DNA from: Lysinibacillus louembei
Lineage (GTDB): Bacteria; Bacillota; Bacilli; Bacillales_A; Planococcaceae
DNA length: 64,000 nucleotides
Direction: 5' to 3'
NCBI RefSeq assembly: GCF_033880585.1
Contig: NZ_CP137624.1
Span: forward strand, 3,321,501 to 3,385,500
The position numbers and the translations under genes are program-made. Shown here piece by piece: positions 38,502-45,257 of the stretch. Position 1 is the stretch's first letter. Every line of letters starts with the position of its first letter. The notes under the pieces are model-generated. The model worked only from the letters and a program-made list of their open reading frames with translations. It made no database searches and was not told where the DNA came from.

Positions 38502-40310
38502 TTATTTCGTTGCTTGGTATGCCTGTATAAATTCCTTCACTTTTGCGCTATCTGCCTCTAGCTTTAAGCCTGTATCCACAAGTGGTGAAACAGTTGATAC
38601 TGCTGGCTTTTTATTACCTTGGTAGTAGCTAATAAATTCATCTTGATTAATTGAATAAAGAATCGCTTTACGTAAATCAACAGATGTTGATACATCTCGC
38701 CCTTTTGGATTCATTAATAAATAAGAAACGGCGTTGCTATCTGCTGTTTTTAATGTTAAATTCGCATCACCCTCTACAACATCAAGCTTCGTTTCTGGCA
38801 CAGCTTGTAGTACGTGGATTTCTCCGTTACGTAGAGCTGATAATGCGCTATCGTTATCTTGGATAAAGCGCACGTTCACTTTATCTATTTTCGGCTCATT
38901 TTCAGTGCCTGCTTGATATGCTGGATTTTTTACGAACGTTGCCTCATAATCATTTTTTTGTACAAGTACGTACGGGCCTGATGCAGCTAAATGGTTAGCA
39001 TATGTTGCCCCTTCTGTTACTGTTGCTTGATCTCCATAAGCTACATGAACGTTTGGATCATAGCTTTCAACATCAAATGTATTGACCGCTGTAACCGCAG
39101 CCTCTGACACGATACCACCCGATTGATGCGCTAAATAGTTTAACACTTGTGGGAATGGTGTTGGTGTCGTAATTTTTACAACCTGATATTTACCTGCTGC
39201 ATTATCGACATCTGCCTCGCTCGCCACTACCTCTGCAATCGCCGCTGGTAATTGCTGTGATAACACGTCTAAAACTGTGTCGCCATTAGCTGTTTGTACA
39301 GATTCCAATGCTGTAATATCTGTTACGATCTCCACTGTCTCGATGTTTTCATGAATTGAGTATGTGCGGTGATCTGGCACTGCTTTCTCATCCTTTGCAC
39401 GCTCTAATGAAAAGACTACATCCTCCGCTGATACTAAATCACCTGTATCTACCGCTTGGTTATTTTCCACTTTTGCAAAGTTAATATCATCGCGCAATAC
39501 GAAGTAATACGATTGGTTATCCTCTGCAATAGCATAGTTATACGATAACGAGCCATCTGCAACGACTTCATCCGTATCAGATAAATTCACTAAACGCACA
39601 TACATATTCGTATTTAATGTATTAATAGAGCCATCATTTCCTTTAACTGGGTCTAATGATGTTAATGATGAAATAGCTTGGTGTAAAATAAGCGGTTCTG
39701 TTGTATTTTTTGCTGTATCATTAAATGAAATTGTTTCCCACGCCTGTGCACGTGATTTTGGTAAACGAACTGTATCTGGGTTTACTTCTTTAGAATAAAT
39801 ACCTTGGAATTTCTTTGAAATGTATAATGGTGCAATATATGCTTTATCGAAAACAAGTGCTTGCTCTAGCTCTGCATATTTCTCCTTCGCCTCATCGCCA
39901 ATTAATGTGCTTGCCTCATCGATTAATGTATCGATTTGCTCGTCTGCTGTATTGCTATAATCTCCACCTGTTTTAAACAGACCACGCACCGCATAATCTG
40001 GGTTCCCTGTTACTGTCGTCCAGCTTGATAATGCTAAATCATAGTTCCCTGCATCTCGTTGTGCTGAAAAGGAACCGAAATCTGGTTGAATGTTTAATTT
40101 CACCTCAAAGCCATTTTTCGTTAATTGGTCACGCACGATATTTACATCTTGCTCCTGTGATGCCATTCCTAGTACTTCAATAACAGGCTTGTCACCTGTT
40201 GGGCTCGTTGTGCTTTCTTTTTCTACATCGGATTTTGTTTCTACACAGCCTGTTAACGCTACGGCTGCCGCTGTTGTTGCTGCTGCAAAAGCTAAATATT
40301 TTTTGTTCAT
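38502..40310 (-). CDS. ABC transporter substrate-binding lipoprotein, SBP_bac_5 family, apparently circularly permuted
   Basis: 602 aa with a lipobox (ALTGC, Cys22). Residues ~42-196 read like the usual C-terminal lobe of DppA/OppA proteins: 'IVRDQLTKNGFEVKLNI', 'GNYDLALSSW', 'GNPDYAVRGLFKTGG', 'QIDTLIDEA' and 'AELEQALVFDKAYIAPLYI'. Residues ~205-602 read like the usual N-terminal part: 'LILHQAISSLTSLDP', 'LVSAEDVVFSLERA', '...ASGPYVLV', ending with 'DLRKAILYSINQDEF', where the normal protein would continue into the C-lobe. Thus the order is reversed compared with the family. Next to two permeases; peptide or nickel-type ligand likely, substrate unknown. Confidence 0.88.
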   Translation of the reverse strand: MNKKYLAFAAATTAAAVALTGCVETKSDVEKESTTSPTGDKPVIEVLGMASQEQDVNIVRDQLTKNGFEVKLNIQPDFGSFSAQRDAGNYDLALSSWTTVTGNPDYAVRGLFKTGGDYSNTADEQIDTLIDEASTLIGDEAKEKYAELEQALVFDKAYIAPLYISKKFQGIYSKEVNPDTVRLPKSRAQAWETISFNDTAKNTTEPLILHQAISSLTSLDPVKGNDGSINTLNTNMYVRLVNLSDTDEVVADGSLSYNYAIAEDNQSYYFVLRDDINFAKVENNQAVDTGDLVSAEDVVFSLERAKDEKAVPDHRTYSIHENIETVEIVTDITALESVQTANGDTVLDVLSQQLPAAIAEVVASEADVDNAAGKYQVVKITTPTPFPQVLNYLAHQSGGIVSEAAVTAVNTFDVESYDPNVHVAYGDQATVTEGATYANHLAASGPYVLVQKNDYEATFVKNPAYQAGTENEPKIDKVNVRFIQDNDSALSALRNGEIHVLQAVPETKLDVVEGDANLTLKTADSNAVSYLLMNPKGRDVSTSVDLRKAILYSINQDEFISYYQGNKKPAVSTVSPLVDTGLKLEADSAKVKEFIQAYQATK

Positions 40311-40328: not shown

Positions 40329-41825
40329 TTAATTTGATTTCGGGTCTAATGCGTCACGTAAGCCATCACCAAAGAAATTAAATGATAGCACGAGCAGCAT
40401 AATACAAATCCCTGGGAAAATCGCTACATAAGAATGTGTTTCTAAATATGTGCTTCCTACTTTTAAAATATTGCCCCATTCAGGAATATGTGGCTCAACA
40501 CCTAGCCCAAGGAAGCTCAAGCTACTCGTTGAAATAACCGCGCCACCAATTGTTAAGGTTGCCTTGACAATCATCGGTGCTAAAGAGTTTGGTACGATAT
40601 GCTTAAAAATAATCGCCCCATCAGACACACCCAAGGCACGTGCGGACTCGACAAACTCGTAATTGGCAATTTGCATGACATTGGCACGCATCGTTCGAGC
40701 ATATGTCGGAATCGCTCCAACGCTTAGTGCGATAATTAAGTTCACTGTATTGGCGCCAAATGCGGCAATAATCGCAATTGCTAACAGAATACCTGGAATC
40801 GCATATAAAATATCAAGCAAACGCATAATGATATTATCTGTATGTCGACCGTAATAGCCTGAAAATGCCCCAAGTGCCCCACCAATAATTGCGGGAATAA
40901 TTGTTGAGAAAAAGCCGACAATTAACGAGATTTGTGCACCGAAGACGATGCGGGAGAATAAATCACGCCCAAAATCATCTGTGCCTAATGGATATTCAAA
41001 TGATGGTCCTTGCAATAGGGCACTATAATTATTTTGTGTCGCAAAGTCATAATCAAACGTCCATGAGCTGACAATAGACAATGAAAACATTGTAATAATA
41101 AAGAACATGCCGAACACAGCCATCGTATTGCGCAAAATTTTGTCCCATGTTTTTTGCCACTTCTCTATTGCAGAAGGATCTGCATTTCTCGCCTTACGAA
41201 TCAATGTAAAGCCGAGCAATGTGGCAAACAAATTACCTGTCACTGTTGCAAGCAACAGCACAATACCTAGCACTTGCATCCATTTCGGTGCAGAGGTAGC
41301 TGTGACATAGCGTGCAACAAGCACTGCTGTTACTGCATAAACAAGTGCCAATGCTATAAATGCAGTCATTGCCATAACGAAGCTATCGACAACATAAGGC
41401 TTAAATATATTGAGTGCCGAAAGCATAAAAATAACAATTTGTGTCATCAGTGCATAAACCGCAAACGTATACTCCGTCGTTTTATTTTTCGTCACAAGCA
41501 TAAAGCCATAGCCTGCCGCAAAAACATTGCCAGCAAAAATCGTCAGCATTAATGGATAGCCTAGCCAGCGTGTTCTACGTTCAATTTGATGCACCTTTGC
41601 TAAATCTTTTTTTATAAGCAGTGAAGTGAGCCAAACATAAAGTGTTATCACAGCGTAAATAATAAAGCCATACAACACATATGGTCGCCACACACCTTCA
41701 CTAAAATTAAAGCTATAAAGTAAAAGCAATACTGAAAAAATCGCAGAAAAGGCAATGGTAAATTGTGCATTGACATATTCCTGTGTAATTTTCAAAAGTA
41801 GCTTCACATTTGATATGAATTTCAC
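40329..41825 (-). CDS. ABC transporter permease DppC/OppC-like with long N-terminal membrane extension
   Basis: 498 aa. The last ~275 residues are a complete DppC-type permease: FEYPLGTDDFGRDLFSRIVFGA, EAA loop 'EFVESARALGVSDGAIIFKHI', and the C-terminal 'FGDGLRDALDP'. About 220 residues before it form some six additional hydrophobic segments absent in ordinary OppC/DppC. Coupled to the binding-protein gene 18 nt downstream. Confidence 0.88.
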   Translation of the reverse strand: MKFISNVKLLLKITQEYVNAQFTIAFSAIFSVLLLLYSFNFSEGVWRPYVLYGFIIYAVITLYVWLTSLLIKKDLAKVHQIERRTRWLGYPLMLTIFAGNVFAAGYGFMLVTKNKTTEYTFAVYALMTQIVIFMLSALNIFKPYVVDSFVMAMTAFIALALVYAVTAVLVARYVTATSAPKWMQVLGIVLLLATVTGNLFATLLGFTLIRKARNADPSAIEKWQKTWDKILRNTMAVFGMFFIITMFSLSIVSSWTFDYDFATQNNYSALLQGPSFEYPLGTDDFGRDLFSRIVFGAQISLIVGFFSTIIPAIIGGALGAFSGYYGRHTDNIIMRLLDILYAIPGILLAIAIIAAFGANTVNLIIALSVGAIPTYARTMRANVMQIANYEFVESARALGVSDGAIIFKHIVPNSLAPMIVKATLTIGGAVISTSSLSFLGLGVEPHIPEWGNILKVGSTYLETHSYVAIFPGICIMLLVLSFNFFGDGLRDALDPKSN

Positions 41826-41838
41826 AAAAAATCCTCTC

Positions 41839-43266
41839 CTAAGATTGCTTCATTTTTGAGCGGATACGTGGATCAAAGAAAGCATACAACACATCAATGA
41901 CCATATTGACAATCGAAATGGTAATAGCGATGTAAACAACGCCACCCAAAATCGCAGGAATATCGGGTATAAACTGCTTATCGACAATATAACTACCGAT
42001 ACCGCTAATATTGAATACTTTTTCTGTTACCGCTGCCCCGCCAAGCATGCCACCGAACAATAACCCAATCACTGTAATAATTGGAATCATCGCATTGCGA
42101 ATTGCATGTTTGACAATGACGTTTTTCTCACTTAAGCCCTTTGCCTTTGCTGTAATAATATAATCCTCATGAATGACCTCTAGCATGCTGGAGCGCGTCA
42201 TCCTTGCAATCGATGCTGTAATGGATGTCCCTAATACAACAATCGGCATTACAATGGATAGCCAATTACTTGGATTATATGTTGCAGGTAGCCATTGTAG
42301 CTTTAACGAGAATGTTAAAATAAAAATTAGACCTTGCCAGAAGCTCGGAATGGATAAGCCAATTAATGCTAATAGCATAAATGCATAATCTAAAAAGGAA
42401 TTAGGTCGAACAGCTGAAATAATGCCGACAGGTATCGCAATAATCACAGCCATAATTAAAGAAAATAATGCTATCTTTAATGTTACTGGGAATTTATTCA
42501 TAATACTTTGCGTAATATCCTCTTTCCCCGCAAAGGAATTCCCTAAATCAAAGGTAAATAGCCCTGATAAAGAATGCCATAGCTGCACCAAGTACGGCTG
42601 ATCCAAGCCATGTAGCTTATTAAAATTCGCAATTTGTGCTGGTGTCGCCTCAACGCCTAACAGGTTGCGTGCTGGGTCAAATGGTGAAATATATAAAATC
42701 GAAAACACCAATATCGCCACACCGACAATAACAAACAAGCTTTGAATAATACGTTCAACGATAAAGCGTGCAAATGGATTGCTACATAAAATAAGTATGA
42801 TATACATGATAATACTAGGTATAAAGCTTAATGCTAAAAATGCAGGCTTCATTAGTAGTTGACTAAAATATGCTGTATAGGTCTGTTGTGCCACATCTTG
42901 TGCGAAAAGCTGCTGCTCAACTTCCTTATTCATCCTTTGTTCAACTAATTGTTGGACTGTTGCTTGTAGCTTTTGCTCATCTATTTTTTGATGAAAGAAG
43001 CTTGCTTTGGATAATTCCTGCTCTCTATATTCCGCTGCCCACTCCTTTTCTATGCCTGAAGCAATTAATTGCGCTTTTTGCTGCGCATATTTTTCGGAAT
43101 ATGCATTGTTATTTTTTTTATAGAAAAACAATACAGTAGCAACGATATGAACGAGCAAGCCCGTTATATATAAAATCCATGCATAGCTTTTTTTGGCACT
43201 TAATTTTTGATAGCTTCTTGCAAAATATGCATTGATGCCTCGCCCAAAAATTTCATTATTGGACAT
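41839..43266 (-). CDS. ABC transporter permease DppB/OppB-like with N-terminal extension
   Basis: 475 aa. From residue ~165 it is a normal DppB permease (FIVERIIQSLFVIVGV, GLDQPYLVQL, EAA loop 'DYIITAKAKGLSEKNVIVKHA', ending FDPRIRSK). The preceding part has a membrane segment, then about 90 residues of charged, heptad-like helix (EKYAQQKAQLIASGIEKEW and on) and another membrane segment. First gene of this minus-strand transporter block, divergent from the ATPase gene. Confidence 0.88.
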   Translation of the reverse strand: MSNNEIFGRGINAYFARSYQKLSAKKSYAWILYITGLLVHIVATVLFFYKKNNNAYSEKYAQQKAQLIASGIEKEWAAEYREQELSKASFFHQKIDEQKLQATVQQLVEQRMNKEVEQQLFAQDVAQQTYTAYFSQLLMKPAFLALSFIPSIIMYIILILCSNPFARFIVERIIQSLFVIVGVAILVFSILYISPFDPARNLLGVEATPAQIANFNKLHGLDQPYLVQLWHSLSGLFTFDLGNSFAGKEDITQSIMNKFPVTLKIALFSLIMAVIIAIPVGIISAVRPNSFLDYAFMLLALIGLSIPSFWQGLIFILTFSLKLQWLPATYNPSNWLSIVMPIVVLGTSITASIARMTRSSMLEVIHEDYIITAKAKGLSEKNVIVKHAIRNAMIPIITVIGLLFGGMLGGAAVTEKVFNISGIGSYIVDKQFIPDIPAILGGVVYIAITISIVNMVIDVLYAFFDPRIRSKMKQS

Positions 43267-43505
43267 ATTGCTTCTCCCTTCATAACAATTTTAAAATACT
43301 TGATAAGTTTCACAAAACGGTTATTGTATAATTCCTATCTGTATAGTACATTATGTATTAGCGATATCATTTCGTCAATAAAAATATTTATTATTTTGTC
43401 CAAAAGCAAAATACTTAACGAAAAGCTTTATCAAATTGAATAAATAGCGTAACTTTCAGCATTTGAGCTGAGACATAATTGATAATAGATAGGTGGATAT
43501 TTATA

Positions 43506-45257
43506 ATGGAAAAATTATTAGAAGTAAATGATTTGCGCGTTTCCTTTATTACAGGGGAAAGCGAATTTGAAGCAGTAAAGGGCGTTAGCTTTCATGTCAA
43601 TAAAGGGGAAACAGTTGGTATTGTAGGAGAATCTGGTAGCGGTAAAAGCGTAACAGCTCGTTCGATTATGCGCTTGCTGCCATCACCTCCCTCCTTTTTA
43701 AAATCAGGTGAGATTCACTTTCAAGGACAAAATTTAGTCGAGCAAACAGAAAAACATATGGAGTCTATTCGCGGGAAGGATATTAGCATGATTTTCCAAG
43801 ACCCAATGACCTCCACTAACCCAACAATTCGTATCGGTGAGCAAATTGCAGAAGGCTTAATGAAGCATCAAAAGCTTTCGAAGCAAGAGGCATATACACA
43901 AACGATTGAGCTATTAAAATTAGTTGGTATTAACAATTGCGAGGAGCGCTATAAGCAGTATCCACATGAATTTAGTGGTGGAATGCGCCAGCGTGTAATG
44001 ATTGCGATGGCATTGGCGTGTAATCCTTCTTTATTAATTGCAGATGAGCCAACAACCGCCCTTGATGTAACGATTCAAGCACAAATTTTAAGCTTGATGA
44101 AGCGCATGCAGGAGCGACTAGGCACAGCCATTATTTTAATTACCCATGATTTAGGCGTTGTCGCAGGGATGTGTGACCGTGTCGTTGTGATGAAGGAGGG
44201 CGAAATCGTTGAGCAAGGAACAACGGAGGAAATTTTCGCAAATCCGCAGCACAGCTATACGAAGCGTTTATTAAATGCCTTGCCAAGGCTACACGAAAAA
44301 AAGGAAGCAAAAGTACAGCCAAACTTGCCAGCGGACCTTGACCCCAACGTGCCATTAGTAGAAATACGCCATTTGCAAAAGCATTTTGATTTAGGTAAAG
44401 GTGATGTTGTCAAGGCTGTTAATGATTTATCATTTCATATTTACCCTGGTGAAACGCTTGGACTTGTAGGAGAATCTGGCTCAGGTAAATCAACAACAGG
44501 ACGTACTATTTTGCAGCTACACCAGCCAACTGATGGAGAGGTGCTATATAAAGGTGTGCCTGTGACACGCTTATCGAAAAATGAGTTAAAGAGTATGCGC
44601 CGCCATTTACAAATGATTTTCCAAGACCCATACTCGTCTTTGAACCCTCGCAAAAAAGTGCTCGATATTATTGGCGAGGCATTGGATGTTCATAAGCTTA
44701 CGACATCGAAGGAGCAGCGTCGTGCACGTGTCGAGGAATTATTAGAGCTTGTTGGCTTAAATAAGGAGCATGCGCTACGTTATCCACATGAATTTAGCGG
44801 TGGACAGCGCCAGCGCATTGGTATTGCAAGAGCATTAGCGGTTGAGCCGAACTTCATTGTTTGTGATGAACCATTGTCTGCCTTGGATGTATCAATTCAA
44901 AAGCAAATTGTTGACTTATTAAAGGATTTACAGCAGCGCTTTGGCTTAACCTATTTATTTATTGCCCATGATTTATCGATGGTCAAGCATATTAGTGACC
45001 GAGTAGCTGTTATGTATGGCGGAAAAATTGTCGAGCTAGCTGAGAGCGAGGAGCTTTATTCCAACCCGCAGCATCCTTATACGAAAATGCTACTGCAATC
45101 GATTCCAATTCCTGACCCAGCGATCGAAAAACAGAAGCAGCAGGAAAGACATGTGTTAACAGAAGATGAGCTACGTGCTAAACGCTTTGACGTCGACAAC
45201 ACAGAGCTTGTCGAAATTTCCAAAGGACATTGGGTTGCTTTAGCTAAGGGCGAGTAA
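43506..45257 (+). CDS. Fused double ATP-binding protein of a DppD/DppF-type ABC transporter
   Basis: 583 aa with two complete ABC ATPase domains: Walker A GESGSGKS twice (about residues 38-45 and 320-327), signatures FSGGMRQR and FSGGQRQR, both with [16 protein letters not shown] Walker B and HD switches; each domain ends in the oligopeptide-type C-terminal segment ([26 protein letters not shown]). This DppD-DppF fusion resembles GsiA. ATG at 43506 with AGGTGG; divergent from the permease genes that it presumably serves. Confidence 0.92.

Follow-up and report, generated by a model that had tools for sequence, protein, structure and literature searches.

Evidence for circular permutation of a cluster C solute-binding lipoprotein in a probable Gis-like importer of Lysinibacillus louembei

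The window analyzed here, a stretch of 64,000 nucleotides of the Lysinibacillus louembei genome (contig NZ_CP137624.1, positions 3,321,501 to 3,385,500), contains a gene for a lipoprotein in which, according to a preliminary description, the C-lobe part of a cluster C solute-binding protein (SBP; SBP_bac_5, PF00496) precedes the N-lobe part. This raised the question of whether the parts are indeed swapped and of what importer such a protein would serve. The motifs quoted for the two parts were located in the translation at residues 88–97 (GNYDLALSSW), 103–112 (NPDYAVRGLF) and 125–133 (QIDTLIDEA), and at residues 214–221 (SSLTSLDP), 294–305 (SAEDVVFSLERA) and 545–559 (DLRKAILYSINQDEF), respectively, and the lipobox LTGC occupies residues 19–22. 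Features of the locus are collected in Table 1.

Table 1. Features of the permuted lipoprotein gene and of its importer module in the window
Feature	Coordinates	Strand	Basis
Solute-binding lipoprotein (SBP_bac_5), 602 aa, circularly permuted, GisD-like	38502..40310	-	Profile search, hhalign, rotation scan
Putative signal peptide and lipobox (LTGC), residues 1–22	40245..40310	-	Cys22 invariant in 23 aligned homologues
First part, residues 38–175, corresponding to canonical 368–506	39786..40199	-	Profile search, hhalign, model pLDDT
Val100, invariant	40011..40013	-	Alignment of homologues
Linker, residues 176–209	39684..39785	-	Gap separating the two hhalign-matched parts
Second part, residues 210–597, corresponding to canonical 56–362	38520..39683	-	Profile search, hhalign
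OppC/DppC-type permease, 498 aa, residues 1–222 extension	40329..41825	-	
OppB/DppB-type permease, 475 aa, residues 1–165 extension	41839..43266	-	
Promoter and operator-like element ahead of the permease-SBP operon	43323..43378	-	Conserved at homologous loci
Fused double ABC ATPase, OppDF/GsiA type, divergent	43479..45257	+	

The PF00496 profile matched the whole protein in two stretches with 144 bits, the best one placing residues 259–579 on profile positions 10–252 and the other placing residues 50–117 on positions 299–366. Scanning the parts separately gave the same assignments, residues 199–602 matching the start of the profile (10–252; 119.6 bits) and residues 1–199 its C-terminal end (299–366; 30.4 bits, E = 2.8e-7). 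When the parts were rejoined in the opposite order (residues 198–602 followed by 40–197), a single stretch was matched that spanned positions 10–366 of 368, and the score rose from the 119.6 bits of the second part to 149.9 bits, as the proposed permutation predicts. Canonical SBPs of the same genome, used as a control, matched the profile in one collinear stretch, and canonical SBPs from other Bacilli ran across the artificial joint (rejoined position ~405), covering for instance 239–529.

Alignment with hhalign to a reference made of eight canonical SBPs from the same genome yielded the correspondences listed in Table 1 for the second and the first part (E = 1e-29 and 5e-11, respectively), which do not overlap and leave ~5 canonical residues missing between them. 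The rejoined family gave one collinear alignment of 440 columns over canonical positions 56–506 (E = 1.7e-38). A rotation scan, in which the mature family sequence was restarted at every point in steps of 12, showed a single maximum of 295 for a start at residues 184–208, where the canonical termini would be expected, compared to 213 for the native order. Profile search, hhalign and rotation scan therefore agree on the placement of the C-lobe part before the N-lobe part. The protein matches the domain significantly over its whole extent but departs from the canonical N-lobe to C-lobe order, so that it counts as a permuted variant rather than a canonical member of the family; judging from these sequence comparisons, it is almost certainly a circularly permuted cluster C SBP.

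An AlphaFold model of the full-length protein, based on 23 homologues, had a mean pLDDT of 77.6 and a pTM of 0.75. In this model the first part reached pLDDT values mostly of 80–97 and showed the succession strand-helix-strand-helix-strand-helices-strand, which is the order expected for the end of lobe II. The pLDDT of the first part predicted in isolation was 49, a poor value that could speak for the alternative entertained in the preliminary description, namely that an unrelated domain, merely resembling a C-lobe, makes up the first ~200 residues. However, this segment, modelled with confidence in the full-length protein but not in isolation, looks like a piece of a lobe rather than a self-standing domain; on its own it matches canonical SBPs over residues 388–506 (E = 4.9e-13) in addition to the PF00496 match cited above, and the lobe would otherwise be deprived of its second half. 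The profile matches contradict the unrelated-domain alternative, which we consider very improbable. Foldseek searches with the model retrieved cluster C proteins at E up to 0.001, headed by E. coli GsiB/YliB and including the glutathione-disulfide complex 3m8u. Sequential TM scores were only 0.24–0.51, and values of at most ~0.5 are expected where one part cannot align in order.

The position of the cut had to be revised. Whereas the second part had been described as ending where the C-lobe begins, it extends ~40 residues beyond DLRKAILYSINQDEF, into that lobe, and the cut thus falls inside the second lobe, not at the lobe boundary. It is located in the loop between the helix after 'SPLVDTG' and the strand 'IEVLG'. 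The second part accordingly comprises the first lobe and the initial portion of the second. The first part supplies the final portion of lobe II together with the stretch leading back to lobe I, and the linker connects what is canonically the C-terminus to the N-terminus of the canonical mature protein. An ordinary two-lobed Venus-flytrap fold would be retained, since the old termini are bridged by the ~34-residue linker and the new ones lie at a helix-strand loop in lobe II. Since this surface loop belongs to lobe II, the lipid anchor, canonically at the start of lobe I, would be relocated to that lobe. In dipeptide-type SBPs the Asp of the GWTGD motif anchors the peptide amino group; the aligned residue of the window protein is the invariant Val100 (motif WTTVTGNPD), and GsiB has Ser at this position.

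Full-length homologues with the same order of parts were found in 107 of the 261 genomes of the family, belonging to 11 of its 19 genera. Further families with homologues are Bacillaceae, Paenibacillaceae and Staphylococcaceae. Among named species, many from Metasolibacillus, Solibacillus, Lysinibacillus, Ureibacillus, Psychrobacillus, Sporosarcina, Planococcus, Cytobacillus, Niallia, Rossellomorea, Lederbergia, Neobacillus and Paenibacillus carry them, and one is encoded on a Metabacillus plasmid. Homologues were present in 12 of 108 genomes of a staphylococcal family, and the matches in a 300-genome sample of the phylum were the window genome and one Bacilli genome already among the homologues. 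The staphylococcal proteins are 38–40% identical to the window protein and, analyzed by themselves, showed the same swapped matches and the same cut, rejoining lifting their score from 121 to 194. A sequencing, assembly or gene-calling artefact would have to account for the same architecture in more than 100 independent genomes and in many named species, with the frame open bar a few copies with one stop, and has a negligible probability. Short SBP fragments that look like decayed copies were also observed in three genomes (G179:C10:1534533-1534757, G215:C1:3091917-3092138 and G048:C1:990213-990353).

Two origins of the swapped order were weighed. Capture of the first segment from a different SBP gene by domain shuffling, in place of duplication and truncation of one gene, was raised by the authors who described the permuted MglB-2 of Treponema (PMC4990184), and is consistent with the absence of a duplicated intermediate and of a canonical-order sister of the module from a 400-genome sample of the class. 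But the join observed, at one canonical position, free of overlap and with only ~5 residues missing, is not something that capture would require, and we regard capture as unlikely.

The gene is part of a four-gene module that has almost everywhere the same arrangement, two permeases followed by the permuted SBP and, opposite to them, the fused double ATPase, whose start codon is probably the ATG at 43506. The preliminary description had pointed to unusual extensions of the neighbouring permeases, and these were confirmed over residues 1–165 of the OppB-type and 1–222 of the OppC-type protein. The former (42772–43266, minus strand) consists of a hydrophobic segment, ~85 hydrophilic residues and another hydrophobic segment. 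The latter, of ~220 residues (41160–41825, minus strand), contributes about six additional hydrophobic segments; within it lies a repeat, LGYPLMLTIFAGNVFAAGYGFMLV / LGIVLLLATVTGNLFATLLGFTLI, that scores above all 500 shuffles. Staphylococcal homologues of the OppC-type permease have a shorter extension. A Pfam search of both extensions returned no significant family, and weak sub-cut-off matches to SID-1 and CUT were dismissed.

In the 400-genome class sample, 30 genomes had the extended OppB-type permease. A comparison by eye showed them to be identical with the 30 that have a complete permuted SBP outside Staphylococcaceae, whose extension is too divergent to be detected by the single-sequence permease search used. 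No extended permease was paired with a canonical SBP in that sample. Extended permeases and permuted SBP thus travel together across genomes, which bears out the earlier guess that the whole transporter is a diverged subfamily. Their constant pairing suggests that docking may have been rebuilt around the reoriented protein, and the ~85 hydrophilic residues of the OppB-type extension are a candidate extracytoplasmic docking element for it. A variant operon was observed in one genome, at locus L207 (6892-13792, minus strand), where two permease genes, two separate ATPase genes and the permuted SBP gene follow one another on one strand.

The promoter and operator-like element ahead of the permease-SBP operon reads TTGACG, CATAAT and then GTACTATACAGATAGGAATTATACAAT. 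The strongly conserved element right after the -10 box, TATACTATAC.GATnGGAATTATACAAT, recurs at the majority of the roughly 100 homologous loci. Its perfect copy is unique in the genome, two other sites having 2–3 mismatches, and no sulphur genes lie around the one with 2 mismatches. GGAATT within the element resembles one half of CymR boxes. Control of the operon by CymR was considered but is not proposed, on account of the single perfect copy in the genome, the lack of sulphur genes around the 2-mismatch site and a spacing unlike that of the published cysK site. No riboswitch was detected upstream of the operon by Rfam.

Staphylococcus aureus can grow on glutathione and on glutathione disulfide by means of its GisABCD-Ggt system (PMC10355420). 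According to the same paper, gisA diverges from gisBCD-ggt, nine membrane segments are predicted in GisB as well as in GisC, and GisD is considered a putative lipoprotein. Two traits of that system were recognized in the window, a fused ATPase divergent from a permease-permease-SBP operon and permeases with additional membrane segments (hydrophobic stretches, about 2 in the OppB-type and 6 in the OppC-type protein). Staphylococcal-type loci (L203, L204 and L205) consist of a divergent ATPase, two permeases, the permuted SBP and then ggt. Since the staphylococcal homologues are permuted and followed by ggt, as in GisA/GisBCD-Ggt, the window protein was classified as a GisD-like permuted SBP, and there is little doubt that its importer belongs to a Gis-like module. 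An S. aureus record covers the first 224 codons of the SBP, with 99% identity to one such staphylococcal genome; these codons include the canonical C-terminal part, which implies that the S. aureus protein also starts with that part. On the basis of matching gene order, this S. aureus gene would correspond to gisD (SAUSA300_0203). In record L210, deposited as S. aureus 'plasmid unnamed2' (NZ_CP077929.1), the gis-like locus forms an inverted pair whose arms have diverged and are largely unannotated; an assembly artefact, chromosomal or palindromic, is the probable cause.

With regard to the substrate, ggt is absent from the window module, where it would be the last operon gene, and one ggt is present elsewhere in the genome. 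Across the family, ggt was found in 70 of 107 genomes with the module and in 111 of 154 without it; there is no association (Fisher p 0.28), and co-occurrence of ggt was dropped as support for glutathione. In genus g8 (e.g. G027-G037) most genomes retain the module and no gamma-glutamyltranspeptidase was seen, which argues for another downstream enzyme or another substrate there. The best sequence matches of the rejoined protein include GsiB and Listeria CtaP, a cysteine-uptake SBP (PMC9239247), both scoring only slightly above other cluster C proteins and with identity around 20%. Homology to the Gis system and synteny with it also speak for glutathione or a related compound. All this considered, whether glutathione or a close relative would be the main substrate is about an even call.

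It is a serious possibility, if somewhat short of an even chance, that the permuted protein of Planococcaceae and other Bacilli binds a ligand other than glutathione, be it a different small peptide, a conjugate of cysteine or a metal complex. The tie to ggt and glutathione was established for the staphylococcal branch alone, identity to its proteins does not exceed the 38–40% given above, the window module has no ggt of its own, and 37 of the 107 module genomes, including nearly a whole genus, have no ggt at all. Against this, the four genes, their order, the cut and the permease extensions are all as in a Gis-like locus, and other enzymes could cleave glutathione. The broader reading preferred here is that of a permuted cluster C SBP of a Gis-like importer, which probably captures glutathione, GSSG or a related small thiol or gamma-glutamyl peptide. 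The ligand would be passed to the two extended permeases, the fused ATPase hydrolysing ATP. More tentatively, and with the balance rather against it, these proteins might form a 'cluster Cc' subclass across Bacilli, S. aureus GisD included, in which the lipid anchor shifted from the first lobe to the second and the permeases acquired membrane and probably extracytoplasmic extensions for docking the reoriented SBP.

Among known systems the closest is GisABCD-Ggt of S. aureus. Both systems consist of homologous proteins, namely a divergent ATPase, two permeases and a lipoprotein SBP, and the cut of the staphylococcal SBPs coincides with that of the window protein. The gene after gisD is ggt in Staphylococcus but not in the window. 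Permutation is not mentioned in the paper on GisABCD, which states that the sequence of GisD indicates a recognition mode unlike that of GsiB and that homologues were detected in few other Firmicutes (PMC10355420). Both statements may reflect the failure of end-to-end comparison between two orders of the same parts. In annotation pipelines the permuted protein passes for an ordinary SBP with a partial match. E. coli GsiABCD shares the fused double ATPase and similar permeases, and GsiB is among the nearest solved structures, but it has the canonical order, and all four components fell far below the NCBIfam Gsi equivalog cut-offs (GsiA 645 vs 1077, GsiB 52–55 vs 594, GsiC 247 vs 463 and GsiD 285 vs 484 bits). 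With canonical cluster C proteins in general (DppA, OppA, GsiB and CtaP), the window protein has in common all domain parts, similar helices and strands, and its nature as a lipoprotein of an Opp/Dpp-type importer; it differs in the swapped order, in the anchor predicted to enter lobe II and in Val in place of the GWTGD Asp.

Natural circular permutation is rare among SBPs. A literature search returned only MglB-2 of Treponema, a cluster B protein, and none for cluster C or GisD. That protein, Tp0684 (MglB-2) of Treponema pallidum, is a naturally permuted, lipid-tethered SBP assigned to 'cluster Bc' (PMC4990184). It has a cluster B sugar-binding fold and an unrelated origin, the first three strands of its N-lobe having moved to the C-terminus, whereas profile and fold matches of the window protein are to cluster C. 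The permuted form described here has persisted in several families of Bacilli, in each case alongside altered permeases, and thereby provides a natural experiment on which lobe needs tethering and on the docking of binding proteins to their importers.
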